From the NCBI GenBank assembly GCA_012730045.1, contig JAAYBR010000099.1, forward strand, positions 1 through 63,183: a stretch of 63,183 nucleotides of DNA, written 5' to 3'. This DNA comes from Candidatus Hydrogenedentota bacterium. Lineage in GTDB: Bacteria; Hydrogenedentota; Hydrogenedentia; Hydrogenedentales; CAITNO01. Within the stretch, counting starts at the first letter, position 1; every line of letters starts with the position of its first letter. Below are positions 16,800 to 35,726 of this stretch, piece after piece. The position numbers were made by a program, and so were the translations under genes. The notes under the pieces are model-generated. The model saw only the letters and a list, made by a program, of their open reading frames with translations, ran no database searches and had not been told where the DNA came from.

Positions 16800-16843
16800 G
16801 GGCCGCGGCTTTCCGAAGGGAAAGTTGCGGCCCGTTGTGTTTT
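16800..16843 (+). terminator. terminator after the HTH gene
   Basis: A long GC-rich stem (16800-16814 with 16818-16833) with a GAA loop and a small internal mismatch, followed by GTTGTGTTTT. Confidence 0.75.
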
Positions 16844-16853
16844 GTGCTAAGGT
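16825..16853 (+). promoter_or_regulatory. possible promoter of the corrinoid gene
   Basis: TTGCGG, 17-base spacer, TAAGGT. It overlaps the right arm of the upstream terminator, so one short segment would serve both roles. Confidence 0.35.
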
Positions 16854-16890
16854 TTTCGCAACTTCAACCCCTGTTTGGGAGGTTTCGGTC

Positions 16891-17553
16891 ATGGAGCTGT
16901 TTGAAAACATCGCCGTCTGCGTCACCCGAGGAAAAGTCAACCAGGCCTCCGCCTACCCGCCCGACCTTCGCGGCCAGGACGGGGTGTTTGAGCTGGTGCG
17001 CGACGCGCTGGCGAACGGGGTGGCGCCGAGCGACATCCTCACGAAGGGGCTGATGGTCGGCATGAACGAGATCGGGCAGAAATTCAGCCGGAACGAGGCC
17101 TTTGTGCCGGACCTGCTGATGGCGGCCAAGGCGATGACGGCGGGCATGGACCAGCTCAAGCCGGCCTTTGAGTCGGGCGCGGCGCAGCACCGCGGCACCT
17201 TCGTGGTGGGCACGGTCAAGGGCGACCTGCACGACATCGGGAAGAACCTCGTGCGCATGATGATGGAGGGCGCGGGCTACAGGGTGATTGACCTCGGCGT
17301 GGACGTTTCCCCGGAGAAGTTCGTGGCGGCGGTCCAGGAGAACCCCGGCTGCATCGTCGGCCTGAGCGCCCTGCTGACGACCACCATGATCAACATGGAG
17401 ACCATCACGAAGGCCGTGAAGGAGGTCGCGCCCGCGACGGTGGTCGCCGTGGGCGGCGCGCCGCTCACGCAGGAGTTCTGCGACAAGATCGGCGCCGACG
17501 CCTACTCCGCCGACCCGCAGGGGCTGATTGACTGGCTTTCCTCGCGGAACTGA
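16891..17553 (+). CDS. corrinoid (B12)-binding protein of the methyltransferase-partner family
   Basis: A 220-residue protein with the two-domain layout of MtbC/MttC-like corrinoid proteins. A helical cap (residues ~1-90) carries KGLMVGMNEIGQKF and VPDLLMAAKAM. A Rossmann-type B12 domain has the base-off motif GDLHDIGKNLV (Asp-x-His-x-x-Gly, the His being the lower cobalt ligand), then GLSALLTTTM and VAVGGAPLTQ. In the known family it shuttles methyl groups between a substrate-specific methyltransferase and a second one. Neither partner, nor a reductive activase, is in this window. The start at 16891 follows GGGAGG by 8 bases; the longer frame runs into the upstream terminator. A strong terminator follows, so it is transcribed alone. 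Confidence 0.88.
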   Translation: MELFENIAVCVTRGKVNQASAYPPDLRGQDGVFELVRDALANGVAPSDILTKGLMVGMNEIGQKFSRNEAFVPDLLMAAKAMTAGMDQLKPAFESGAAQHRGTFVVGTVKGDLHDIGKNLVRMMMEGAGYRVIDLGVDVSPEKFVAAVQENPGCIVGLSALLTTTMINMETITKAVKEVAPATVVAVGGAPLTQEFCDKIGADAYSADPQGLIDWLSSRN

Positions 17554-21208: not shown

Positions 21209-22567
21209 ATGCGTCTCCTTGCCCGCCGCTCCGTGTTTGCCGCCTTGCTGCTGTCCCTGGGACTGCTCTGTTCCGGACTGGCCGTGGCCCAGTCCGCCGC
21301 GCTGGACTCCCGGCAGGTCGAGATTGTCGCCTCACCGGAGGTGAAACTGCTGGACCAGGAGGGGGCCGGGAAGCTTCTCCAAGTGGGCGAGCATCTGGTG
21401 GTGGTGATGGAGGGGACGCCGGAGGAGATGGGGTTCCAGCACGGCCGCCTGCTGGCGAAGAAGATCCACCACGTCATCAAGGAGGGCTACATGGCCAAGG
21501 CCCTCTGGGGCCGGGGGTACACACCGGAATATGTCGCCGCCCAGAGCGACCGGATGGAAAAGCATTTTCCTGAGTCAATCAAGGAGGAAATTCGGGGAAT
21601 CGTGAAAGGCCTCAAGGCCGCCGGGGTGGACGACCTGGAGTACGCGGACGTCCGGATCGGCGTGACGCAGGCGGAGATTATGCACTTCCCTGCGGACAAG
21701 CCGCCGCAATCCTGCTCCAACTTCGCGGTCTGGGGAAAATGGACGACCGACGGGCGCCTGCTTCACGGCCGCAACCTCGACTGGGACGTCAAGGGCGGCG
21801 CCCAGGAGGACGCGGTGGTGCTGGTGTGGCGGCCCAAGGGCGGGTCGCCGTTCATGATGCCCGGCTGGGCCGGCGGCGTGGGCAGCGTCAGCGGCATGAG
21901 CGCCCGCGGCATCACCATCGGCGAGATGACCCTGCCGTCCCCCGACGCCACCTTTGACGGGCTGCCCCTCTTCCTGCAGATGCGCCTGGTGCTGGAGAAG
22001 GCCGCCACGCTGGACGAGGCAGTGAAGATGTTCCAGGAGTACCCGCGCACCACGGGGTGGAACTTCATCCTCGGCGACGGGAAGACGCCAGACGGGCGCG
22101 CGCTGGAGACGGACGCGAAATACTGCAACGTGTTCACCACGATGGACGAGAAGGAGGGCGCGGCCACGGGGCACTGGGGCATGGAGCAGTGCGTGCGCCG
22201 CACGAACCACCCGACGGACCTCGATCAGCTCTTTAGGCTGGCGAAGGCCTACGGCAGTGAATTTGGGCTGACCGTGGAGACCAGGGAGCAGCTCACCGTG
22301 CTGGTTCCCATGCTCCAGGGGCAGGACAGTTTCCAGCGCTACGAGTGGATGAGCCGCCGCATCGAGGAGGTCCCCGGCAAGATTGATGTGGAGCAGGCGG
22401 TCAAGATTCTGGCCACCGGCCCGGTCTACTGCGATGCCACGCTCCATTCCTGGGTGTTCGACCCGAAGAACCGCGCGGCCTACCTCTCCATCGCGGGCTA
22501 CAACCCGCCCGTCACGGCCACGGACCGCCCCTTCACCAAGATAGATCTGACGGAGTGGTTCAAATAG
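21209..22567 (+). CDS. secreted C45-family NTN hydrolase/acyltransferase
   Basis: A 452-residue protein with a signal peptide (cleavage after GLAVA-Q, ~residue 24). GTPEEMGFQHGRLLAKKI and the self-processing site QSCSNFAVWG identify the acyl-CoA:6-APA acyltransferase / phospholipase-B-like NTN hydrolases. The Cys of SCSNF becomes the new N-terminal nucleophile after autocleavage, and LHGRNLDWD follows as in the family. It probably hydrolyses amide bonds of acyl-amino or related compounds in the periplasm. The frame extends to 21071, but the ATG at 21209 has AGAGAGGG 8 bases upstream and begins the signal peptide. The 227-base region before it is shared with the divergent fic gene. Confidence 0.85.
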   Translation: MRLLARRSVFAALLLSLGLLCSGLAVAQSAALDSRQVEIVASPEVKLLDQEGAGKLLQVGEHLVVVMEGTPEEMGFQHGRLLAKKIHHVIKEGYMAKALWGRGYTPEYVAAQSDRMEKHFPESIKEEIRGIVKGLKAAGVDDLEYADVRIGVTQAEIMHFPADKPPQSCSNFAVWGKWTTDGRLLHGRNLDWDVKGGAQEDAVVLVWRPKGGSPFMMPGWAGGVGSVSGMSARGITIGEMTLPSPDATFDGLPLFLQMRLVLEKAATLDEAVKMFQEYPRTTGWNFILGDGKTPDGRALETDAKYCNVFTTMDEKEGAATGHWGMEQCVRRTNHPTDLDQLFRLAKAYGSEFGLTVETREQLTVLVPMLQGQDSFQRYEWMSRRIEEVPGKIDVEQAVKILATGPVYCDATLHSWVFDPKNRAAYLSIAGYNPPVTATDRPFTKIDLTEWFK

Positions 22568-22724: not shown

Positions 22725-25574
22725 ATGAACCGCAGGGATTTCTTACGGAAGACGGCCACGGGCATGACGGCGCTGGGCGGGGGGGTGTATCTCCTCGGCG
22801 CGGCGTCGCCCAAAGAGGCGGACCGCGCGGCCAAACAGCTGTGGCGGAGCACCTGGCGGCCCGAGACGCCGCACCGGCTGCCGGACGCCACCCACGCCCT
22901 CGCCCAGCGGGCGATCGCCGGGGAGCACGGCCGCTCCATGATCCGCGCGGAGTTCCAGCTGGACCCCGCCGAGAGCCTCAACGCGACCCAGGACATGCGC
23001 TACGCACAGGCGGCCCTGCTCTGCGCCAAAAACGCCCCCCTGCGCATTCTGCCGGGGGAGAAGATTGTCGGGTCGGCCACGCTGCTGGAGGCCCCGGCCC
23101 ACCAGACCCCGGTGCTCGGCTGCGCGAGCGTCAGCCACACGACCATCGGCTTCGACAAGGGGCTGAAACTCGGCTACAAGGGCCTGCGCGCCAAGATTGA
23201 GGAGCGGCTGGCCCGCGGCGGCGTGTACAAGCCCGAACCCCAGCCCCGGCTGGTGGCCGGGGACGGCGGCCCCGCGGCGCGGTGCGACGCCTCCGCCGCG
23301 TTCCACTGGACGGCGCGTCCGCTCCCCGCCTATGCGGGCACCCCCCTGACGGTGGAATGCCGCGCGCGCGTGACGGCGACCGCCGGATACAACATCCTCG
23401 TGGCGCACCGGGACAAGGCGTCCCCCAACCACTGGGAACTTTACACCGAGCCGGGCACCGGCTTCTTCTGCGCCTATGTCCCGGGCAGGACCCCGGCGGT
23501 CCACCACAGCCAGACCCCCATTTGCGACGGCGCGTGGCACGACCTGTCCATGACCGTGACGGACACCTCCATCACCCTCCATGTGGACGGGCAGGAGGCG
23601 CTGTCGGCGGCCCTGGCGGCGCAGCCCGGCGGCAACCAGCAGGACGGGCGCGGCGCGGACACGGGCATGCTGTGGATCGGCGCGTATCCCCCGGCCAGCA
23701 CGGGCTGCTCGGGGGACATCGCCCGGGTGCGTGTGCTGAACGGCGCGGAGGCTGCGGCCGACTGGACGCCCGCAGCGGACGCCGACGGCGAGACCGTTTT
23801 CGCGGACGCGTCCCCCGCGGGCAACCCGGCGGCGGGTCCGCGCCGGGGCGGCGACCTGCTGGAGGCCATGCTGGGGTGCCTTGACGCGGCGGAGGTCTGG
23901 CGGCAGCGCCATGTGGAGCTGCTGGACGAGCGCATCGCCGCGAGCGACGGCGCGGAGCGCGCCGAATACGCGCGCGTGCGCGACACGCTCCTGCACGTTC
24001 CCGAAAACCCTCCGCGCGACTTCCGCGAGGCGGTCCAGTCGCTTTGGTTCATGTACGCCTTCCAGCGGCTCATGGGCAACTGGTCCGGCATCGGCCGGAT
24101 AGACGAGATGCTCGGACCATATCTGGCGAAGGACCTGGCGGACGGGACGACCACGCTGGACGAGGCGCGGGATGTGCTGGCGCACTTCTGGGTCAAGGGC
24201 TGCGAATGGATCGGCGCCTTTGACACCAAAGGCTCCGGCGACGCCCAGCATTACCAGAACATCGTGCTGGCCGGCGTGGACGCCCATGGCAGCGACATCA
24301 CGAACGAGGTGACCCACCTCGTGCTGGACATCGTGGAGGAGCTGCACATCAGCGACTTCCCCGTGGCCGTGCGGGTGGGGCGCAACACCCCCGACCGGCT
24401 CTTCCGCCGCATCGCCGAGGTGCAGCGCCACGGCGGCGGCGTGGTGGCCGTCTACAACGAGGACGTGGCCATCGAGGCGCTGGTGAAGTTCGGTTACTCC
24501 GTGGAGGAGGCGCGCTGCTTTGCCAACGACGGCTGCTGGGAAATGATCATCCCCGGCAAAACCTGCTTCAGCTATGTGCCCTTCGACGGGCTGGCGCTGC
24601 TGCACGAGACGCTGGGGCTCCACGACCCGGACACGCCCGCGCCCGACTACCCCGACTTCGACAGCCTTTACGCGGCGTTCCTCGCCCGGCTGGAGAGGTA
24701 TCTGGAGGGGCACCACAAGGCGGCGGACGGCTGGTGCCGCAGCGGCGCGCCCACCCCGCTGCTTTCCATCTTCGTGGACGACTGCATCGAGAGCACCCGC
24801 GGCTACTACGAGCGCGGCGCGCACTACTACGCCCTCGCGCCGCACATCGGCGGGCTGGCCAACGTGGGCAACAGCCTGCTTGTGCTGCGGGAGCTGGTGT
24901 ACGCGCAGGGGGCGGTCACGCTGCCCGAGTTTGTCCAGATCCTCCGCGACGACTGGCAGGGCCACGAGAACCTCCGGCGGATGGTGCAGACCCGCTTCGC
25001 GTGCTACGGCAACGACGACGACGGGGCCGACGGCATGGTGCGCCGCGTGTTCGACGACTACACGCGCCTCGCGGCGCAGACCCGCGGGCGCGAGGGCGTG
25101 CTGCGGCCCGCGGGCATCAGCACCTTCGGCCGCGAGATCGAGTGGGCCGCCCCGAACGGGAAACGCCGCGCGTCGCCCGACGGCCACAAACTGGGCGCCG
25201 TGCTGGCGACCAACTTCTCGCCGTCCCCCGGCACGGACGCCAAGGGCCCCACGGCGGTCCTGCGCTCGTACTGCAAGATGGACTTCACCAAGTGCCCCAA
25301 CTGCGCCACCGTCGAGCTGAAGGTGCACCCCGACACGGTGCGCGGCGACGACGGCGTGACGGCCCTCGCGGGGCTGATGCGCGGGTTTGTGGAGCTGGGC
25401 GGCCTTTTCCTCCACATTGACGTGGTGGATTCGGCCATGCTCCTCGACGCCCAGCGCCACCCGGAAAAGTATCCCAACCTGGCGGTGCGCATCGCGGGAT
25501 GGTCCGCGCGCTTCGCCACGCTCAACAAGGACTGGCAGGACATGGTCATCGCCCGGACCCAGCAGTACGCCTGA
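22725..25574 (+). CDS. glycyl radical enzyme (PFL-like) with Tat signal and LamG-type insert
   Basis: A 949-residue protein. Residues 1-27 form a twin-arginine signal (MNRRDFLRKT, hydrophobic core GMTALGGGVYLLGAA). A PFL-like N-terminal portion (~45-170) is interrupted by a ~160-residue concanavalin/LamG-type beta-sandwich (~185-345; WHDLSMTVTD, ITLHVDGQ, MLWIGAYPP, IARVRVLNG). The PFL barrel resumes at ~375 (LLEAMLGCLDAAEVW, REAVQSLWFMYAFQ). The thiyl-radical Cys is in NDGCWEM (Cys604, Glu606), and the glycyl-radical loop is RIAGWSARF (Gly925), followed by the usual QDMVIART tail. So the catalytic residues look intact. No activating radical-SAM enzyme is adjacent. The substrate is unknown; the GCxE motif is that of dehydratase/lyase-type members more than PFL itself. 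It heads a group with the PHP (37-base gap) and sialidase-like genes. Confidence 0.85.
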   Translation: MNRRDFLRKTATGMTALGGGVYLLGAASPKEADRAAKQLWRSTWRPETPHRLPDATHALAQRAIAGEHGRSMIRAEFQLDPAESLNATQDMRYAQAALLCAKNAPLRILPGEKIVGSATLLEAPAHQTPVLGCASVSHTTIGFDKGLKLGYKGLRAKIEERLARGGVYKPEPQPRLVAGDGGPAARCDASAAFHWTARPLPAYAGTPLTVECRARVTATAGYNILVAHRDKASPNHWELYTEPGTGFFCAYVPGRTPAVHHSQTPICDGAWHDLSMTVTDTSITLHVDGQEALSAALAAQPGGNQQDGRGADTGMLWIGAYPPASTGCSGDIARVRVLNGAEAAADWTPAADADGETVFADASPAGNPAAGPRRGGDLLEAMLGCLDAAEVWRQRHVELLDERIAASDGAERAEYARVRDTLLHVPENPPRDFREAVQSLWFMYAFQRLMGNWSGIGRIDEMLGPYLAKDLADGTTTLDEARDVLAHFWVKGCEWIGAFDTKGSGDAQHYQNIVLAGVDAHGSDITNEVTHLVLDIVEELHISDFPVAVRVGRNTPDRLFRRIAEVQRHGGGVVAVYNEDVAIEALVKFGYSVEEARCFANDGCWEMIIPGKTCFSYVPFDGLALLHETLGLHDPDTPAPDYPDFDSLYAAFLARLERYLEGHHKAADGWCRSGAPTPLLSIFVDDCIESTRGYYERGAHYYALAPHIGGLANVGNSLLVLRELVYAQGAVTLPEFVQILRDDWQGHENLRRMVQTRFACYGNDDDGADGMVRRVFDDYTRLAAQTRGREGVLRPAGISTFGREIEWAAPNGKRRASPDGHKLGAVLATNFSPSPGTDAKGPTAVLRSYCKMDFTKCPNCATVELKVHPDTVRGDDGVTALAGLMRGFVELGGLFLHIDVVDSAMLLDAQRHPEKYPNLAVRIAGWSARFATLNKDWQDMVIARTQQYA

Positions 25575-25611: not shown

Positions 25612-26547
25612 ATGCGGCATTTCCACCCCATGGCCCTCGTTTGCTGCGCGGCGGCGCTGTGCGCCCTGCCCGGCTTCGCCGCCGAACTGGAGTCCCCCTA
25701 CACCGACCCGTCCGCGCCGTGGCTGCGCGGCAACCTCCACACCCACACGACCAACAGCGACGGGCGGCAGGCGCCGCAGGCGGTGGTGGACGAGTATGCG
25801 GGCATGGGCTATGACTTTCTGATGCTCAGCGACCACGACCAGCTGACAGACCCGGCCTCGGTGGACCCGAAGGGCATGGTGATGATCCCCGGAAACGAGA
25901 TCTCGGCCAAGGGCCCGCACCTGCTCCATGTCAACGCCGCGGCGAAGATCGAGCCGGACCGCGACCGCCAGAAGGTGCTGGATGCCATCGCAGCGGACCG
26001 CGGCTTCGCCGTCATGAACCACCCGAACTGGACCAAGAACTACAACCACTGCGACCTCGCGGTGCTGGAGCAGCTCAACGGGTACGCGGGCATCGAGATT
26101 TTCAACGGGGTTATCCTGTTCCTGGAGGGCAGCGAGTGCGCCACGGACAAGTGGGACCGCCTGCTCGCCCAGGGAAAGCGCGTCTGGGGCTTCGCCACGG
26201 ACGACAGCCATGACAACGGCCACCGGGGCCTGGGCTGGGTCATGGTGCAGACCGGCGACCGCACGCCGGACGGCATCGTGGACGCCATGCGGCGCGGCAG
26301 CTTCTACGCCAGCACGGGCGTCACCTTCGACGAGATTTCCGTGGAGGGGCTGACCGTGCGCGTGCGCGCGGCGAACGCGCAGAAGCTGCGCGTCTTCGGC
26401 CCCCTCGGCCGCATGCTCGCCATGGCGGACGGCTCCGAGATCACCCACACCGTCAACCCGGAAAAGGCCGGGAACTACGTCCGCGTGGAGGCCTACGGTT
26501 CGGGTTCCGCCACTGCCTGGACGCAGCCGCTGTTTGTGAAGAACTGA
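25612..26547 (+). CDS. secreted PHP-domain metal-dependent phosphoesterase (CehA/McbA-like)
   Basis: A 311-residue protein with a signal peptide (cleavage after GFAA, ~residue 23). The PHP signature is plain: LHTHTTNSDGRQ (metal His pair and Asp), MLSDHDQLT, then the GNEIS Glu, LLHVNA, NHPNW and FATDDSH. A small beta domain ends the chain. Exported PHP hydrolases cleave phosphoesters or, in the CehA type, carbamates. AAGGAG lies 7 bases before the ATG. It is 37 bases after the glycyl radical enzyme and 35 before the sialidase-like gene, so the three probably form an operon. Confidence 0.85.
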   Translation: MRHFHPMALVCCAAALCALPGFAAELESPYTDPSAPWLRGNLHTHTTNSDGRQAPQAVVDEYAGMGYDFLMLSDHDQLTDPASVDPKGMVMIPGNEISAKGPHLLHVNAAAKIEPDRDRQKVLDAIAADRGFAVMNHPNWTKNYNHCDLAVLEQLNGYAGIEIFNGVILFLEGSECATDKWDRLLAQGKRVWGFATDDSHDNGHRGLGWVMVQTGDRTPDGIVDAMRRGSFYASTGVTFDEISVEGLTVRVRAANAQKLRVFGPLGRMLAMADGSEITHTVNPEKAGNYVRVEAYGSGSATAWTQPLFVKN

Positions 26548-26582: not shown

Positions 26583-27578
26583 ATGTCCCGGTTCGTCTGT
26601 CTCGCCGCCGTTGCGGCCTGCCTGTTCATGCCCGCCCTCTCCGCGCAGGACGCCGCCCCGTTCACGGCGGAGCTGGTCTCGTGCGCCAAGATATGGAACG
26701 AGGCGCCGCACAGCGCCTTCACGGGGCTGATCCACCGCGGCGGCGAGTGGTTCTGCGTCTTCCGCGAGGGCCGGGGCCATGTGTCGCCCGACGGCGCGCT
26801 GCGGGTGATCACCTCGAAGGACGGGGAGTCCTGGACCGCCGCCGCCCGGATCACCTCGGACACGGCGGACCTGCGCGACGCGCAGATCACCGAGACGCCC
26901 GACGGCCGCCTGATGCTCACCGGCGCGGCGGCGTGGCACACGCCCAAGCCCGCCACCCACATGACCATGGCCTACTTCTCCAAAGACGGCCGCGAATGGA
27001 CGCCCGGCGTCGAGATCGGCGAGCCGGACTACTGGCTCTGGCGCGTCACCTGGCACAAGGGCACGGCCTACGGTGTCGGCTACGTCACCACGAAGGGCGC
27101 GAGAGGCACGCGGCTCTACAAGAGCGCGGACGGCATTACCTTTGAGACCCTGGTCCCCGATCTGGTGACGGACGGCGAGGCCAACGAGTCGTCCATCCAG
27201 TTTCTGGCCGACGACACCGCGGTCTGCCTGCTCCGGCGCGATGCGGGCGGCAACGGCCTCGTGGGCACCGCGCGCCCACCGTACACCGAATGGGCCTGGA
27301 AGGACCTGGGGCAGCGCATCGGCGGCCCGCATTTCATCGAGGTGCCCGAATTCGGGTTTGTCGCCGCCGTGCGTCTCTATGAGCCCGCCGCGCGCACCGC
27401 GCTCTGCTCTCTTGATCCGGCCACCGGCGTGTTCCATGAAATCCTCGCGCTGCCCTCCGGCGGAGACACCAGCTACCCCGGCCTCGTCTGGAAGGACGGA
27501 CTGCTCTGGGTGAGCTACTACTCCAGCCACGAGGACAAGACCAGCATCTACCTCGCAAAGGTAAGCCTGAAAAAGTAA
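26583..27578 (+). CDS. secreted sialidase/BNR-repeat-like beta-propeller
   Basis: A 331-residue protein with a signal peptide (cleavage after ALSAQ, ~residue 22). It repeats ~50-residue blades typical of BNR/sialidase-like propellers: VITSKDGESWTAAARI, YFSKDGREWTPGVEI, RLYKSADGITFETL, CSLDPATGVF, plus FREGRGH with an Arg near the N-terminus. The classical sialidase Arg triad and Tyr/Glu pair cannot be confirmed by eye, so it may be a non-sialidase exo-glycosidase or a binding propeller. It is the last gene of the probable three-gene exported group; a large palindromic repeat lies just after it. Confidence 0.75.
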   Translation: MSRFVCLAAVAACLFMPALSAQDAAPFTAELVSCAKIWNEAPHSAFTGLIHRGGEWFCVFREGRGHVSPDGALRVITSKDGESWTAAARITSDTADLRDAQITETPDGRLMLTGAAAWHTPKPATHMTMAYFSKDGREWTPGVEIGEPDYWLWRVTWHKGTAYGVGYVTTKGARGTRLYKSADGITFETLVPDLVTDGEANESSIQFLADDTAVCLLRRDAGGNGLVGTARPPYTEWAWKDLGQRIGGPHFIEVPEFGFVAAVRLYEPAARTALCSLDPATGVFHEILALPSGGDTSYPGLVWKDGLLWVSYYSSHEDKTSIYLAKVSLKK

Positions 27579-27844: not shown

Positions 27845-30800
27845 TCAGACGCCCGCGCGGCGTCCGAGCACGGCGAGCAGGACCAGCGCCAGCCCGCCGA
27901 GGAAGAGATCGCCCAGGCGCTTCTTCACTCCGTCCGGCGTGAGGTCCGACTTGGAGCAGCCGCACCCGCACCCCGAATCCTCAATCCCCAGCTCCGCCGT
28001 GTCGAGCACCCCGTCGCCGTTGGCGTCGAGGAAGGTGAACACCGCCTGCGTCAGGCCGGGCACCGCCGCCTGCGCCTCGTCGAAGGTGAGGCCGCCGCTG
28101 CCGTCGGTGTCGGCCTGGTTAAAGGCGTCCCGCAGGGCGGTGCGCGCCGCCTCCCCCGCGGCGGGGTCCACGCCCTTGGACACTGTGAGGCTGACCGCCG
28201 CGCCGGGCGCGGCCTGCGCCCCCGCGGGGGGATTCTGGCCGACAACCGTGCCCGCCGGGGCCGTGTCGCTGTACACCTCCGTCACGCCGCCCACGGTGAG
28301 GCCCGCGCCGGTGAGGGCGGCCTCGGCGTCGGCCCGCGCCTGGCCGACCACGCCGGGCACCGCCACCGTGTTGTTGCAGGGTCCGCTGGAGACCACGAGG
28401 GCGACCTCGGAGCCCGCGGCGGCCTGGGTGCCGCCGCCGGGGTTCTGGGAGAGGACGCCGCCCGCCGCGACGGTGTTGCTGCACTGCTGCGTCACCGTCC
28501 CCACGGCAAGCCCCGCGCCGGTGAGGGCGGCCTCCGCGTCGGCCTGCGCCTGGCCGACGACGGTGGGCACCGTCACGGTGCCGCTGCCTGCAGTCTCAAT
28601 GCAAACCTGATCCACGAAGAGGTTGAGCACGTCCGTGTCGGGCGCTTCCACGGCGCTCTCAAAGACCAGCTCGTGCGTTTCCCCGTCGGCATAGGCACTC
28701 ACGTCCAGCTGGACCAGGGTCCATTCCGCGTACTGCACGGCGTCGGCCTCGGTCATGCGGAACAGCTCGTCGTCGTCCATCAGGAAGGCCATGTGGCCCG
28801 TGGTGCCGGCCGTGGGAATGCGGACATAGAAGGAGAGGGTCGCGGACGCGGCTGCGGGAATGGCCGCGTTCTGCGCGACCCACCCGGACTCCGCGGTGTT
28901 GGTGCCGCCGAACCAGACGAACCAGTCGCCCTCATACGCGGCAAAACTGGCATTGCAGGAGGCGTCGCACAGCGGGGTGCCGTAGTTGAGGGAATACTCC
29001 TCCCAGCCGAGGCTCGGAGAGCCGCTCTCGAACCCGCTGTCGGCCACCGGGTCGTCGGGACAGGGGTCCGCCGGCTCGCCCGCATAGGTCACGAGCACCG
29101 TGTAGGCCCCGCCCAGCTCGTCGTAGTCGGCCACGCGGATCAGGCAGGTCTCCCCCGCCTGAAGCGTCTCGCGGACCTGTGACTGGTAGTCGCAGTAGTC
29201 GTCGTTGTAGCCGATCTCCACCGGGTCGGCGCATCCGCCGAGGAAGACCGTCAGCGTGGTGTCGAACGAGGATCCGCACAGCGAGATGTCGTACAGGCCC
29301 ATGGTGCCGGGTGTGAAGGAGAACCACACATCCGCGCCGTCCCAGTCTTCCGTGTCATAGTCCGTGCCCGCGCCCGTGCTGTCGCCGTTGAAGGCGACGC
29401 CCTCCTCCAGGGAAATGGCGTCCGCGCACAGGTCGTTGGTCATGGGCTCCACATAGTCCACAACGATGGTGTATGCGCCGCCCAGCTCGTCGTAGTCGGC
29501 CACGCGGATGAGATAGGTCTCTGCGGCGTTGAGGGGTGCGCTAACCCACGATTGATAGTCGCAGTAGTCGTCGTTGTAGGCGACCTGGACCGGGGCGTCG
29601 CAGGAGCCGCTGAACACAAACAGGGTGGAGTCAATGGCCGACCCGCACAGCGAGACGGTGTAGGTGCCGGTCTCCGCCGGGGTGAAGGTGAACCACACGT
29701 CGTTCATGTCGTACCAGTCGTCGTTGTCGTACTCCGTGCCCGCGGCCGTGCTGTCGCCCTCATAGGCGACCCCCGCCTCCAGGGCGACCGCGTTCCCGCA
29801 GAGGTCGTTGGGCAGGGGCGTGGACTCCTCCGCGGTCAGGGTGTAGTCTCCCGTCTCCCCGTTATACCCGGCCACGCGGATGTAACAGGCGCTCCCCTCT
29901 GTCATGGGAACGCGGACCTTGGACTGGTAGTCGCACCAGTCGTCGTTGGACGTGAGCGGAACCAGGGCGCCGCAGTCGCCGGAAAAGGCATGCAGCACCG
30001 TGTCAAGCGCCGACCCGCAGGTGAAGAAGGCGTACGTCGCGGTGGCGGGGGCGGTGAACGTGAACCAGACATCCGCGCCCGAGCCGTCCCCGGCGTCGTA
30101 GTCCGCCGCCGCCCCGGCGTTGCTTCCGGAGACGGGCGCGCCAATCAGCAGGGGCCACGCGTCCGCGCAGGTGTCGTTGAATCCGGTGGTGGTGAAAGTG
30201 AAACAGGCGCCGCCGTTGTCCGAGGAGGCCGTGTTGCCCGCCGCGTCCACCACGTCAACGGCGAAGAAGTAGGGGGTGTCGGGGACGAGTCCGACCACCG
30301 GAACCCCGGGGTTCAGCGCGGGGCCTCCGGTGGTCTGCGCGGTCTGGGTGAGGGAGGCGCAGTCGGTTCCGTAGCGCACCGTCGCGGTCACCGGCTCGTC
30401 GGCTTCCACGATGATGACCGCAGTGGTCCCGCCGACGGCGGTCGCCGACGCATTCGAGATGACCGGGGCCGTGCCGTCAATGGGGACGGTCTTCTCGACC
30501 ACCGCCGGGCTGCCGGAGCCGTCGTCCGCGTCGTAGTAGCGCACCGTCATTTCCCCCCCGTCCACGACGTATAGTCCCTCCGTCGGAGTCGCCTTTCCGG
30601 ATGTGTAAAGCTGCACGGCCCCGGTGAACTGGGTGACGGCGGCCTTGACCACCGCGTTCAGGGCCAGGGTCTTGGTGTGAAACTCGCCAACGATCTCCAC
30701 GGCGGCCGACGGGGCGGCCAGCACGTCCTCCAGCATGATCTGCACGATGTCCGTCGGCTTGTAGGCCTCCTTGTCCAGCGTGATCTTGCCGGCCTCCGGG

Positions 30801-31795
30801 ACGTACTCGGGGATGAACTGCGCGAAGGTGGCGGACTTGCTGACCTCCTCGCCCGCCGCGCTGTCCGCGAGCACATTGGAGTAGAAACAGGCGGAGTCGG
30901 AGTCGTAGTTGAAGTCCGTCTCTCCCCGGACGAGGATGCCCTCGACCACGCCCGTGGCGGCGTTGAACACCGGGGACCCGGAATTGCCGCCGTAGGTGTC
31001 CAGATTCGCCACAAAGTATCCGGGGGCGGCGTTGTCCGCGACTTCGGTGGTGGGGCCGAAGGCGATCTTCTTGGGCAGGCCGGCGGGGTGCCCGATCACG
31101 CCGACGGGCGTGTCCAGCGGCACGGTGTCCGAGCGGCGGATGGGCAGGGGCTGCGCCCCCGGCGCGGTCACCGGACGGTCCACCCGCACGATGCAGTAGT
31201 CCAGCCCCCCCGAAAGCGCCCAGCCCACCACCTCCACGGCGGTGTAGACCTGGCTTGCCTCCAGTTCGTACACGGGCGTCGTCGCGTCCGCCATCTCAAA
31301 CCCGAAGATGAACCGCACATCGGCCTGCTCCCCGTCCGAGAAACAGTGCCCCGCCGTGGCGATCAGGTCGTCCCCCACCAGGAATCCCGTGCACCAGGCC
31401 GCCACAGGCTGGCTGCCGAAGGGCTCCCCGGGGCAGGCGGGATACCCCCCTGACGTGTAGTAGTACAAAGACAGTTCCCAGCGGCCCCCGCTGAGGGGGG
31501 TGAGGTCCGACGTGGCCACCAGTCCGCAGACCGACCCGGCCAGTTCCCGGCGCAGGGGGTCCGTCTCCTGATACACGTCAATGCGGTCGTCCGTGCCGTA
31601 GACCACCTTGTCCTGCGCGCCTGCGGGCGTCCAGGGGTCCTTGGAGATGGGGGTGCGTCCGGGGACCGCCGCTTTCCCCTTTTCCGCCTTCTCCGTCGCT
31701 TTCGCGCACTGTTTCCCGTTTTCCAGCGCGGCGGCCGACACGGCGGCCACGGCCAGCCCCAGCGCAACACACATCACCCGCAGAAGTTTTTTCAT
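27845..31795 (-). CDS. secreted trypsin-like serine protease with PPC, PASTA and EF-hand modules (paralog A)
   Basis: 1316 residues. In order: signal peptide (to ~24); trypsin-like domain with TAGHCF (His150), LDYCIVRVD (Asp199) and GGNSGSP (Ser272); a beta region; an Fn3-like domain (~440-535); three PPC-like repeats of ~117 residues (~540-905, each with a YNDDYCDYQS-type Cys signature); a galactose-binding-like domain (~910-1090); two PASTA repeats; an EF-hand pair (DTDGSGGLTFDE, DANGDGVLDTAE); and a tail GCGCGCSK, a 17-residue hydrophobic stretch, RRAGV. The tail looks like a C-terminal surface-sorting signal. I start at 31795: the upstream in-frame ATG is part of the GAGGA ribosome site. 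It is the downstream tandem copy of the gene at 32063-35683. Confidence 0.88.
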   Translation of the reverse strand: MKKLLRVMCVALGLAVAAVSAAALENGKQCAKATEKAEKGKAAVPGRTPISKDPWTPAGAQDKVVYGTDDRIDVYQETDPLRRELAGSVCGLVATSDLTPLSGGRWELSLYYYTSGGYPACPGEPFGSQPVAAWCTGFLVGDDLIATAGHCFSDGEQADVRFIFGFEMADATTPVYELEASQVYTAVEVVGWALSGGLDYCIVRVDRPVTAPGAQPLPIRRSDTVPLDTPVGVIGHPAGLPKKIAFGPTTEVADNAAPGYFVANLDTYGGNSGSPVFNAATGVVEGILVRGETDFNYDSDSACFYSNVLADSAAGEEVSKSATFAQFIPEYVPEAGKITLDKEAYKPTDIVQIMLEDVLAAPSAAVEIVGEFHTKTLALNAVVKAAVTQFTGAVQLYTSGKATPTEGLYVVDGGEMTVRYYDADDGSGSPAVVEKTVPIDGTAPVISNASATAVGGTTAVIIVEADEPVTATVRYGTDCASLTQTAQTTGGPALNPGVPVVGLVPDTPYFFAVDVVDAAGNTASSDNGGACFTFTTTGFNDTCADAWPLLIGAPVSGSNAGAAADYDAGDGSGADVWFTFTAPATATYAFFTCGSALDTVLHAFSGDCGALVPLTSNDDWCDYQSKVRVPMTEGSACYIRVAGYNGETGDYTLTAEESTPLPNDLCGNAVALEAGVAYEGDSTAAGTEYDNDDWYDMNDVWFTFTPAETGTYTVSLCGSAIDSTLFVFSGSCDAPVQVAYNDDYCDYQSWVSAPLNAAETYLIRVADYDELGGAYTIVVDYVEPMTNDLCADAISLEEGVAFNGDSTGAGTDYDTEDWDGADVWFSFTPGTMGLYDISLCGSSFDTTLTVFLGGCADPVEIGYNDDYCDYQSQVRETLQAGETCLIRVADYDELGGAYTVLVTYAGEPADPCPDDPVADSGFESGSPSLGWEEYSLNYGTPLCDASCNASFAAYEGDWFVWFGGTNTAESGWVAQNAAIPAAASATLSFYVRIPTAGTTGHMAFLMDDDELFRMTEADAVQYAEWTLVQLDVSAYADGETHELVFESAVEAPDTDVLNLFVDQVCIETAGSGTVTVPTVVGQAQADAEAALTGAGLAVGTVTQQCSNTVAAGGVLSQNPGGGTQAAAGSEVALVVSSGPCNNTVAVPGVVGQARADAEAALTGAGLTVGGVTEVYSDTAPAGTVVGQNPPAGAQAAPGAAVSLTVSKGVDPAAGEAARTALRDAFNQADTDGSGGLTFDEAQAAVPGLTQAVFTFLDANGDGVLDTAELGIEDSGCGCGCSKSDLTPDGVKKRLGDLFLGGLALVLLAVLGRRAGV

Positions 31796-31838
31796 CGGTC
31801 CGTTCCTCATCCCTGGACAATCAGCCCACAGTCAAGAC

Positions 31839-32062: not shown

Positions 32063-35000
32063 TCAGACCCCGGCGCGGCGGCCCAGCGCGGCGAGCAGCA
32101 CGAGCGCCAGCCCGCCAAGGAAGAGGTCGCCCAGGCGCTTCTGCCATCCGTCCGGCGCAAGGCCCGACTTCGCGCAGCCGCAGCCGCCCCCGGCGGCATC
32201 CCCGAGCCCGAGTTCCGTCTTGTCAAGCACGCCGTCTCCGTTTGTGTCCAGGGCGCTGAAGACGGTCCGCGTCAGGACGACCGACTCCGCCTCGTCAAAG
32301 GTGAGGGTGCCGCTGTCATCCGCGTCCGCCTGATAGAACGCATTTTGCAGGGCGGTGCGCGCCGCGTCCGTGACGGCGGGGTCCACCCCCTTGGACACCG
32401 TCAGGCTGACGGCGGATCCGGGCGCCGCCGTTGCGCCGGCGGCGGGGCTCTGGCTGATGACCACACCCGCCGCGACCGTGTCGCTGTACACCTCCGTCAC
32501 CGCGCCCAGGGTGAGCCCGGCGCCCGTCAGGGCCGCCTCGGCGGCGACCCGCGTCTGGCCAACCAGATTGGGGACGGTCGCCGTGACGGGGCAGGGGCCG
32601 CTGGAGACCACGAGGGCAACCGCCGCGCCGGACATGGCCGGGGCGCCCCCGGCCGGGGTATGGGAAATCACGCTGCCCTCGGGGACGCTGTCACTGCACT
32701 TGCGGGTAACCGCGCCCGCGGAAAGCCCCGCGTTGGCGAGGACGGCCCCGGCGGCGGCCTGGGACTGGCCGACCACGTTGGGCACTTTCACGATAGCCGG
32801 GCAGGGGCCGCTGGAAACGGTGAGGCTCACGGGCGTGTTGTCGGCGACCAGCCGCCCGGCGCCGGGATCCTGGCTGATCACCGTGCCCTTCGGAACCGAG
32901 GCGTCGCACACTTCGGTCACCGTGCCCAGCGTCAGCTGGGCCGCGAGCAGAGCCTCCTCGGCCTGTGTTTGGGTCGTGCCGACAACATCCGGAACCTCAT
33001 TGTCTCCGGTCGGCACGGGGCCTTTCGACACGTCCAAGCTCACGGCGGTGCCTGGGGGCACGGTCGCCCCCCCCGCGGGACTCTGGCCCATGACCTGCCC
33101 TGCGGGAACCGTCTCGCTGTACGCCTCGATGATGCCGCCCAGGGCCAGCCCGGCGCCGACAATGGCCGCCTCCGCGGCGGCCTGCGTCTGGCCGACGACA
33201 TTGGGAACCCGCACGGGGGCTTCGCCGGTTTCAATGCAGACCTTGTCCACGAAAATATTCAGCACGTCGGTCTTGGGCGCCGCCACGGCGCTCTCAAAAG
33301 CCAGCTCGTGCAGGCCACCGTCGGCATAGCCGCTGATGTCCAGTTCCACCCGGGTCCACTCCGCGTACTGCGCCGCGTCGGCCTCGGTCACGCGGAACAG
33401 CTCGTCGCGGTCCATCAGGAGGGCCATGTGCCCCGTGGTGCCCGCTGTGGGGATGCGGAGGTGGAAGGAGAGGGTCGCGGAGCCGGCGACGGGGAGGGTC
33501 GTGTGCTGAAGGATCCACCCCTGCTCCGCGGTGTCCGCCCCGCCGAACCAGACAAACCAGTCGCCCTCATAGGCGGTGAAATCGTCGTTGCAGGAGGCGT
33601 CGCACAAGGGGGTCCCATAGTGGAGGGAATAGCCCTCCCAGCCGGCGCTGGGGGATCCGGTCTCGAACCCGCTGTCCGCCACAGGGTCTCCGGGGCACGG
33701 GTCCCCGGGCACGCCCGCATAGGTCGCGAGCACCGTGTGGGCGCCCCCCGCGGCATCGCGGTCGGCCACGCGGATCAGGTGGGTCACCCCTGCCTGAAGG
33801 ATCTTGCGCACCTGCGACTGGTAGCCGCAGAAATCGTCGTTGAAGCCGATATTAACCAGGTCGCCGCACCCGCCGAGGAAGACGGCCAGGGTGGTGTCGA
33901 ACGAGGACCCGCACAGCGAAATGTCGTACATGCCGGAGGTGCCCGGCGTGAAGGAGAACCACACATCCGCACCGTCCAGGCCTTCGGTATCGTAGTCCAG
34001 GCCCGCGCCGGTGCTGTCGCCGTTGTGGGCGACATCCTCCTCCAGAGGGATGGCGTCGGCGCAGAGATCGTTGGATGCGGCGGTGGTAAAGGTGAAACAG
34101 GCGCCCCCGTTGTCCGAGGAGGCCGTGTTGCCCGCCGCGTCCACCACGTCAACGGCGAAGTAGTAGGGCGTTTCCGGGGAAAGGCCGCCCAGCGTGACAA
34201 CGGGGTCCATCACCGGGCCGCCGGCGCTCAGGGCGGTCTGGGTGAGGGCGCCGCAGGCGGTCCCGTAGCGCACCGTCGCAGTCACAGGTTCGCTGGCCTC
34301 CACCCTCACCGCCGCCGACGCCCAGCCGATGGAGACCGCCGACGCGTTTGCAACGGCCGGGGCCGTGCCGTCAATGGCCACGGTCTTCTCAATCACCGCC
34401 GGGCTGCCCGATCCGTCGTCTTCGTCGTTGTAGCGCACCGTCATTTCCCCCCCGTCCAGAACGAAGAGCGATTCCACCGGGTCGGCCTTGCCGACGCTGT
34501 AAAGCTGCACGGCCCCGGTGAACTGGGTGGCGGCGGCCTTCACGGCGTTCAGGACCAGGGTCTTTGTGTGGTGCTCCCCCTCTATCTCCACATTGACGGA
34601 GGAAACCGCCAGCACGTCCTCCACCGTGATCTGCACCATGTCTGTGGGCTTGTAGGCCTCCTTGTCCAGCGTGATCTTCCCCTCCGCGGCGGCGGCCTCG
34701 GGCACGTACTGGGCGAAGGTGGTGGACTTGCTGACGTCCTCCCCCGCGGCGCTGTCCGGCAGGACATTGGAGACGAAGCAGGCGCCCTGCAGGACAAAAT
34801 CTTCTGCGCCGCGCACGAGAATTCCCTCGACCACCCCCGTGGCGGCGTTAAACACCGGGGATCCGGAGTTCCCACCGTAGGTGTCCAGATTCGCCGTGAA
34901 GTATCCGGAGGCGGTATTGGCGGCCACTTTGGTCGTGGGGCCGAAGGCGAGCTTCTTGGGCAGGCCGGAAGGGTGCCCGATCACGCCAAGGGGCGTGTCC

Positions 35001-35683
35001 AGCGGCACCGTGCCCTCCCGGCGGATTTGGAGGGGCTGCGCCCCCGAAGCGGTCACCGGACGGTCCACCCGCACGACACAGTAGTCGAGTCCGCCCGACA
35101 GCGCCCAGCCCACCACCTCCACGGCGGTGTAAACTTGACTTGCCTCCAGTTCGTACACGGGCGTCGTCGCGCTCGTCATCTCGAACCCGAAGATGAACCG
35201 CACGTAGCTCTGGTCCCCGTCGGCGAAACAGTGCCCCGCCGTGGCGATCAGGTCCTCGCCCACCAGGAAACCCGTGCACCACGGAACCACCGGCTGGGAA
35301 CCGAAGGGTTCCGAAGAGCAGGCGGGATATCCCCCTGCCGTGTAGGTATACAAAGACAGTTCCCAGCGCCCCCCGCTGATCGGCGTCAGGTCCAACGCGT
35401 CCACCAGCCCGCAGACCGACCCCGCGAGCTCCTGCCGCAGGGGGTCCGTCTCCTGGTACACGTCAATCCGGTCGTCCGTGCCGTAGACCACCTTGTCCTG
35501 CGCGCCCATGGGCGTCCACGGTTCTCCGGAAATCGGGGTGCGGGCGCCCGGGGCCGCCCCTTTCCCCTTCGCCGCCTTCTCCGGGAGGGGCGCGCACCGC
35601 TTTCCGTTGTCTGGCGCGGCGGCCGAAACGGCGGCCACGCCCAGCCCCAGCACAACACACACCACCCGCACGAAAGCATTCAT
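32063..35683 (-). CDS. secreted trypsin-like serine protease with PPC, PASTA and EF-hand modules (paralog B)
   Basis: 1206 residues, strongly similar to the downstream paralog through the signal peptide, trypsin domain (TAGHCF, LDYCVVRVD, GGNSGSP), Fn3-like and galactose-binding-like regions, EF-hands (ADADDSGTLTFDE, DTNGDGVLDKTE) and tail (GGGCGCAKS, hydrophobic stretch, RRAGV). Module counts differ: one PPC-like repeat here against three, and four PASTA repeats (each opening with a VPN/DVVG-type motif) against two. PASTA modules bind peptidoglycan fragments in other proteins, so retention near the wall and calcium control by the EF-hands are plausible. The start at 35683 is preceded by GAGGA; the ATG at 35698 overlaps that site. 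It has its own promoter and terminator, so it is not co-transcribed with paralog A. Confidence 0.88.
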   Translation of the reverse strand: MNAFVRVVCVVLGLGVAAVSAAAPDNGKRCAPLPEKAAKGKGAAPGARTPISGEPWTPMGAQDKVVYGTDDRIDVYQETDPLRQELAGSVCGLVDALDLTPISGGRWELSLYTYTAGGYPACSSEPFGSQPVVPWCTGFLVGEDLIATAGHCFADGDQSYVRFIFGFEMTSATTPVYELEASQVYTAVEVVGWALSGGLDYCVVRVDRPVTASGAQPLQIRREGTVPLDTPLGVIGHPSGLPKKLAFGPTTKVAANTASGYFTANLDTYGGNSGSPVFNAATGVVEGILVRGAEDFVLQGACFVSNVLPDSAAGEDVSKSTTFAQYVPEAAAAEGKITLDKEAYKPTDMVQITVEDVLAVSSVNVEIEGEHHTKTLVLNAVKAAATQFTGAVQLYSVGKADPVESLFVLDGGEMTVRYNDEDDGSGSPAVIEKTVAIDGTAPAVANASAVSIGWASAAVRVEASEPVTATVRYGTACGALTQTALSAGGPVMDPVVTLGGLSPETPYYFAVDVVDAAGNTASSDNGGACFTFTTAASNDLCADAIPLEEDVAHNGDSTGAGLDYDTEGLDGADVWFSFTPGTSGMYDISLCGSSFDTTLAVFLGGCGDLVNIGFNDDFCGYQSQVRKILQAGVTHLIRVADRDAAGGAHTVLATYAGVPGDPCPGDPVADSGFETGSPSAGWEGYSLHYGTPLCDASCNDDFTAYEGDWFVWFGGADTAEQGWILQHTTLPVAGSATLSFHLRIPTAGTTGHMALLMDRDELFRVTEADAAQYAEWTRVELDISGYADGGLHELAFESAVAAPKTDVLNIFVDKVCIETGEAPVRVPNVVGQTQAAAEAAIVGAGLALGGIIEAYSETVPAGQVMGQSPAGGATVPPGTAVSLDVSKGPVPTGDNEVPDVVGTTQTQAEEALLAAQLTLGTVTEVCDASVPKGTVISQDPGAGRLVADNTPVSLTVSSGPCPAIVKVPNVVGQSQAAAGAVLANAGLSAGAVTRKCSDSVPEGSVISHTPAGGAPAMSGAAVALVVSSGPCPVTATVPNLVGQTRVAAEAALTGAGLTLGAVTEVYSDTVAAGVVISQSPAAGATAAPGSAVSLTVSKGVDPAVTDAARTALQNAFYQADADDSGTLTFDEAESVVLTRTVFSALDTNGDGVLDKTELGLGDAAGGGCGCAKSGLAPDGWQKRLGDLFLGGLALVLLAALGRRAGV

Positions 35684-35726
35684 CGGTTCGTTCCTCATCC
35701 CTGGACAGGCTGCCCACGGTCAACAC

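Follow-up and report, generated by a model that had tools for sequence, protein, structure and literature searches.

Can a glycyl radical enzyme (GRE) receive its radical inside the cell and then work outside it? The question is raised by a gene at positions 22725..25574 (+) of a 63,183-nt stretch of DNA from Candidatus Hydrogenedentota bacterium (GCA_012730045.1, contig JAAYBR010000099.1; the whole stretch is hereafter called the window), which starts with an ATG and encodes 949 amino acids with no internal stop. The usual view places GREs in the cytoplasm, given that O2 attacks their radical and that its loading needs S-adenosylmethionine (SAM) and reduced flavodoxin. An earlier note on this DNA had read the gene as a GRE carrying a twin-arginine translocation (Tat) signal and a LamG-type insert. 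What is new here, as judged from sequences, is a GRE subfamily in which one multi-phylum branch acquired a Tat leader. We consider it fairly probable that the protein is a working GRE of this unnamed subfamily, loaded with its radical in the cytoplasm, exported folded by Tat and active outside; the translocation, the survival of the radical, and the outside activity are what we infer in this account.

A Glycyl Radical Enzyme of an Unnamed Subfamily

Alignment confirms that the protein is a genuine GRE whose radical residues are in place. The catalytic cysteine and glycine of solved GREs align with Cys604 (24534..24536, +; motif NDGCWEM, with Glu606) and Gly925 (25497..25499, +; motif RIAGWSARF), precisely the thiyl and glycyl positions that the earlier note had picked out. 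The family sequences keep Cys604 and Glu606 without exception (82/82), the 77 long enough to include Gly925 all have it, and His138 (23136..23138, +), which aligns with the active-site His164 of the B12-independent glycerol dehydratase, is found in 74/74 readable family sequences. Asp506, Gln511, and Asn512 are likewise constant across the subfamily alignment, and Ser799, Thr800, Arg803, and Asn830 are present in all or nearly all readable family sequences. These residues belong to a chain in which alignments and the structure model delimit an N-terminal portion of the GRE fold (residues 46–170; 22860..23234, +), and Pfam, alignments, model, and Foldseek delimit a catalytic core (residues 377–949; 23853..25571, +), with Pfam matches to the PFL-like domain at residues 377–794 (2.1e-86) and to Gly_radical PF01228 at residues 828–930 (1.2e-22, 80.9 bits). 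An AlphaFold2 model based on a deep alignment, which supersedes a weak earlier model built on 13 sequences, reaches a mean predicted local distance difference test (pLDDT) score of 88.3 and a predicted template modeling (TM) score of 0.86, with low pLDDT confined to the leader (residues 1–29 and 36–41). The modeled protein has the alpha/beta barrel fold of GREs, and the top 50 Foldseek matches are GREs only, the first being 1r8w (E 2.6e-39, TM 0.65/0.78).

By its sequence, the enzyme belongs to a previously unnamed GRE subfamily. None of the NCBIfam equivalogs for HypD, CutC, PFL, HPAD, IAD, and sulfopropanediol dehydratase scores over its curated cut-off, the best reaching 306 bits versus 1100, and the top NCBIfam model, that of the general PFL2-3 subfamily, does not reach half of its cut-off. 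Two motifs separate the family from outgroup GREs: the thiyl site reads GCWE in 82/82 family sequences versus GCVE in 8/8 outgroup GREs, and the glycyl loop reads RxxGW in 76/77 readable family sequences versus GY in 8/8 outgroup GREs, this GW not being unique to the subfamily, as the solved 2f3o has it too.

The closest matches in both sequence and fold are the B12-independent glycerol/1,2-propanediol dehydratases (1r8w, 5i2a, 9rco), with which the Cys, the Glu, the Gly loop, and the active-site His align. In 1r8w, which is about 20% identical to the studied GRE in structural alignment, His164, Cys433, and Glu435 correspond by alignment to His138, Cys604, and Glu606, whereas the positions of Asp447 and Tyr640 are taken by Val618 and the invariant Ser799–Thr800 pair; the functional roles of these five 1r8w residues we take to be established. 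On this alignment, the studied protein would not count as a glycerol/propanediol dehydratase, since the Asp and Tyr positions differ even though His, Cys, and Glu align. Unlike 1r8w-type dehydratases, it also carries a Tat leader as well as the LamG insert, and an estimate from the alignment puts the stretch from its N-terminal helices to its His motif about 75 residues short. HypD (6vxc) and CutC (5fau) share with it the superfamily, the catalytic Cys/Glu/Gly, and comparable fold scores, but it reaches only 306/1100 and 221.5/1050 bits of their respective family cut-offs, and to our knowledge these two families have no leader. The sugar-type GREs PflD/YbiW are 27–28% identical to it in structural alignment; according to the entry titles, 8id0 and 8id7 were solved with 1,5-anhydromannitol-6-P and 1,5-anhydroglucitol-6-P, and 8yjo is E. 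coli PflD with malonate. The ligands of 8id0 and 8id7 indicate that a sugar ring fits inside a GRE barrel, the bound sugars being phosphorylated in this group.

A Conserved Tat Leader

The N-terminal leader (residues 1–45; 22725..22859, +) consists of N-R-R-D-F-L-R at residues 2–8, a mildly hydrophobic h-region (grand average of hydropathy [GRAVY] 0.76), and an A/S-rich c-region. When the single sequence is run against the NCBIfam model TAT_signal_seq, residues 2–26 score 16.6 bits for a cut-off of 16.7, so that this check is borderline; what makes the leader convincing is its conservation across orthologues. A search of 195 genomes yielded full- or near-full-length orthologues from the same order, 58–95% identical and aligned from residue 1 or 2, and in the alignment of 13 Hydrogenedentota orthologues R3, R4, and F6 are invariant while the remaining leader positions drift. 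Among 21 leaders from four phyla, the motif follows [NSDE]RR[DE]F[LIVM][KR] with few exceptions (RR in 21/21, F in 20/21), in agreement with the twin-arginine consensus [S/T]RRxFLK of Tat substrates, has 18 mildly hydrophobic residues after it (GRAVY 0.5–1.3), and stands in a segment of about 44–51 residues ahead of the GRE part. That the Arg pair, F6, and the next K/R are conserved while the rest drifts argues for selection on a Tat motif, and the twin-arginine signal proposed in the earlier note is thus supported, on these comparisons, as a genuine and evolutionarily conserved Tat leader.

No comparable leader is present in the 8 GREs of other families that were examined. The genome to which the window belongs encodes TatC (1e-56), and the leader codons, compared with those of a same-genus relative, show 2 synonymous and 0 nonsynonymous differences, a pattern that agrees with translation, though the numbers are too small for a test. 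Cysteine content was considered as a separator of the leader and no-leader groups and discarded, the values overlapping.

Probable Gain and Decay of the Leader across Phyla

A scan of 84,980 species genomes returned 80 family loci, labeled here by the records' own taxonomy, many of the sources being metagenome-assembled genomes (MAGs). They fall in Hydrogenedentota, Planctomycetota, Armatimonadota, Bacteroidota, Lentisphaerota, Kiritimatiellota, Verrucomicrobiota, Chloroflexota, Bacillota, Poribacteria, and Firestonebacteria, in addition to one Lokiarchaeia bin. In a tree of 90 sequences (SH-aLRT supports, quick search), the earliest-branching family members, from Lentisphaerota, Chloroflexota, Bacillota, and others, are leader-free, and every RR leader falls within one clade of 44 sequences (support 98), which spans Hydrogenedentota, Planctomycetota, Armatimonadota, and Bacteroidota. 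The simplest reading of these sequences is that the leader was gained once and then lost in places, with the second Arg lost in Bacteroidales, the direction of change being taken from an outgroup root whose long branches call for caution.

Inside this clade, fourteen Bacteroidales sequences have a leader-like N-terminus with SRADFLK, SRKEFLK, or SREEFLK. In the N-termini of L108–L125 and L163, such SRxxFLK variants stand in place of SRRxFLK and look like a decaying Tat signal. Loss of TatC was considered as the cause of this decay and ruled out, as most of the genomes concerned hold TatC and other Tat signals with RR (the model used favors RR). A separate observation concerns L141, a leader-free member at 46% identity whose contig is labeled Lokiarchaeia and which sits on a long branch beside Firestonebacteria; this may be either a binning error or a transfer into an archaeon.

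A LamG Domain Inserted in the Barrel

The third element of the protein is a LamG/concanavalin-like beta domain at about residues 175–370 (23247..23834, +). Pfam matches Laminin_G_3 at residues 205–341 (8.6e-11, 42.6 bits for a cut-off of 27.6), and the model places beta strands at 176–361 in an all-beta domain, inserted between GRE helices 143–164 and 375–406. The insert reported earlier at ~185–345 is thus real, with a slightly larger extent. It is very unlikely to be a product of mis-assembly, because ten other Hydrogenedentota orthologues carry LamG at the same site and two 762-aa frames of the same order (L043 and L048) lack it cleanly.

These two frames keep the leader, which argues that export does not depend on LamG. 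The domain is limited to Hydrogenedentota members and absent in every other phylum of the family, so that the idea of LamG and export as one package does not hold, the leader being older and wider. From these sequences, LamG may either have been added after the leader or have been lost again in places. Its nearest relatives in those genomes lie behind signal-like N-termini in proteins that exceed 1000 aa and have a middle HZS_alpha domain; in L164 and L165, of the same order, the LamG matches Laminin_G_3 and is 35–45% identical to the insert over its length, but it forms an N-terminal domain behind a signal-like sequence rather than an insert in an enzyme barrel.

A Probable Cytoplasmic Activase

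If the GRE is to carry a radical, a radical-SAM activase has to load it. The window genome (97.5% complete) holds one Gly_radical protein and one activase over the cut-off, as does a relative, G028 (99% complete), with exactly one GRE and one activase, class III ribonucleotide reductase being outside the models used for these counts. The window-genome activase (G000:C149:4460-5254) lies on another contig than the GRE and has no export signal by inspection. Across the family, an activase adjoins the GRE in 37 loci, eight of which have RR leaders (L091, L092, L094, L096, L097, L099, L103, and L106), and none of these activases has a signal sequence by inspection, in line with the cytoplasmic radical-SAM partner assumed in the earlier note. 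Activase matches occur in all 15 Hydrogenedentota genomes holding the family, the sole match of G009 being fused to another GRE and that of G014 being interrupted by a stop; they also occur in 16/55 genomes in which no full family member was seen. Because the sole activase is retained alongside the sole GRE, the window-genome activase is probably the partner of the studied enzyme, which would then carry its radical. In an activase tree, it is placed next to the main clade of family-linked activases but outside it, a position that is compatible with this pairing without being decisive.

Some loci join the two functions in one frame. In Hydrogenedentota, L168:439-3762 (+) and L169:1150-4443 (−) are single frames of 1098–1108 aa with a short radical-SAM activase at the N-terminus and a full GRE at the C-terminus, which is a natural activase–GRE fusion. 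At L120:10161-13034, an activase beside a leader-free family GRE is in frame with a C-terminal DUF2961, which we take to be GH172-type. Finally, at L052:2494-4056 (G014:C187), the C-terminal quarter of a family GRE is joined directly to an activase that has a gap inside it and a stop at its end, reflecting either a rearrangement or a mis-assembly.

Where Would the Radical Enzyme Work?

GRE activation involves SAM, reduced flavodoxin, and a 4Fe-4S cluster (PMC12288474). Since it needs SAM and reduced flavodoxin, loading must be cytoplasmic, and since Tat transports proteins that are already folded, it is by this pathway that a loaded enzyme could leave. In the account that we favor, the GRE would fold in the cytoplasm, where a radical-SAM activase devoid of export signal would put the glycyl radical on Gly925; TatABC would carry the folded, radical-loaded enzyme across the inner membrane; and, outside, the radical would move to Cys604, which would abstract an H atom from an extracytoplasmic substrate. 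The LamG of Hydrogenedentota, a later addition in the loop after helix 143–164, would probably bind the substrate or anchor the enzyme. The same logic is found in Tat-exported molybdenum catechol dehydroxylases and respiratory reductases, whose cofactor is loaded in the cytoplasm before the folded holo-enzyme is exported (PMC7028382, PMC11574389), although these enzymes carry metal cofactors, when that of the studied GRE would be a backbone protein radical. A literature search, whose coverage excluded most subscription journals, found no description of an exported or periplasmic GRE among the results listed.

Several points weigh against this account. We know of no precedent for a radical protein carried through Tat, and a signal-peptidase site is not obvious in each leader, AxA-like sites being present in many of the 21 but not in all. 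O2 destroys glycyl radicals by cleaving the chain at the radical glycine (PMC12288474), and no activase would be there to repair the enzyme outside. Within the leader clade, L098 and L100 have no visible leader, and most Bacteroidales members have their second Arg replaced by A, K, or E, which together suggest that export is dispensable in some lineages. The account is also built on sequence and model. Consequently, the earlier proposal that the leader implies export stands insofar as the Tat motif is conserved and TatC is present, and is tempered by the leaderless deep relatives and by the decayed leaders of most Bacteroidales.

These very observations lend themselves to another explanation, namely that the GRE is cytoplasmic, its Tat-like leader being inefficient, held back, or cut off (e.g., through activase binding or a chaperone) and its working pool remaining inside. 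Leader-free relatives in many phyla suggest that the chemistry of the subfamily works in the cytoplasm, and in Bacteroidales an N-terminal extension persists although the second Arg is gone, as expected if export is nonessential. However, the conservation of R3, R4, F6, and the next K/R in four phyla implies selection for a Tat motif, and a LamG of this type otherwise sits behind signal-like N-termini, so that we regard a cytoplasmic pool as possible but unlikely. Alternatively, the protein might be exported without its radical and have a binding or hydrolytic role outside, where the addition of LamG would suit binding and where an activase, needing SAM and reduced flavodoxin, could not work (PMC12288474, and established knowledge). 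The invariance of Cys, Glu, and Gly, and the activases that are linked to the GRE or retained as only copy, make such a radical-free export very unlikely. An artefact, be it a wrong start codon, a chimera of assembly, or a mis-assembly that fused a LamG gene to the GRE, has almost nothing left to recommend it. Although the window belongs to a draft of metagenome type in 155 contigs, and MAGs account for many of the relatives, ten other Hydrogenedentota sequences, assembled independently, share the architecture; the leader is in frame across four phyla; and most of the differences from the same-genus relative are synonymous.

Neighbors and Leads on the Substrate

Upstream of the GRE lies a C45-family autoproteolytic acyltransferase/hydrolase (21209..22567, +; open reading frame from 21071, likelier start 21209), and downstream a CehA/McbA-type metallohydrolase (25612..26547, +; likelier start 25612) and a sialidase/BNR-like protein recognized by eye, with no Pfam match (26583..27578, +). 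All three have signal-like N-termini, and the earlier note had taken such exported hydrolases as support for an extracytoplasmic pathway. As functional clues they carry little weight, because they are kept beside the GRE in the same genus only: the first is not found there elsewhere, and the other two adjoin it only in the same-genus G001.

Across family loci, only the activase and AraC regulators (8/104 neighbors) recur as partners. The 104 nearest genes also include the GH123 N-terminal domain three times, GH116 twice, GH130 and GH106 once each, and one activase–DUF2961 fusion, raw counts uncorrected for background, so that the link to carbohydrates from gene context is weak and only a lead. 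Genes resembling URO-D recur within several kb of family GREs, but the window genome holds 15 of them, and this recurrence may thus be background. With the LamG domain, the scattered glycoside hydrolases, the sugar-type AraC regulators, and the GREs solved with anhydro-sugar phosphates as leads, our guess would be a sugar- or glycan-derived substrate. A more specific scenario, which we find quite unlikely, is that of a periplasmic or surface GRE, loaded with its radical inside and passed through the Tat pore, that would act without O2 on polymer- or glycan-bound substrates and thus play, in anaerobes, the part of lytic polysaccharide monooxygenases. With regard to lifestyle, the window genome has no COX1 and has a cytochrome bd oxidase, which fits an anaerobe or microaerophile living at low oxygen.

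Two further features of the window may be mentioned. A corrinoid-binding (B12) protein is encoded at 16825-17553, ~5 kb upstream of the GRE, and another such protein, with 68% identity to it, is encoded near the G028 GRE (L041/L090). In addition, 27845-31810 and 32063-35698 (−) encode two large paralogous proteins in tandem. Judged by eye, both have a signal-like N-terminus, a trypsin-like N-terminal part, and repeats of a VPxVVGQ segment, and they share a Cys-rich, hydrophobic C-terminal tail that ends in GRRAGV and resembles a sorting signal.

Implications for Anaerobic Radical Chemistry

If the favored account is true, a protein radical would be made inside the cell, survive translocation, and work outside, and this in a subfamily branch distributed across at least four phyla. 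The cargo of Tat, so far metal cofactors, would thereby come to include a backbone radical, and extracellular C–H activation would be open to anaerobes. The coexistence of leader-bearing, leader-decayed, and leader-free members within a single subfamily provides natural variants for comparison. Since the subfamily includes Bacteroidales of rumen and termite-type guts, its substrate may matter for the use of fiber or glycans in these environments.
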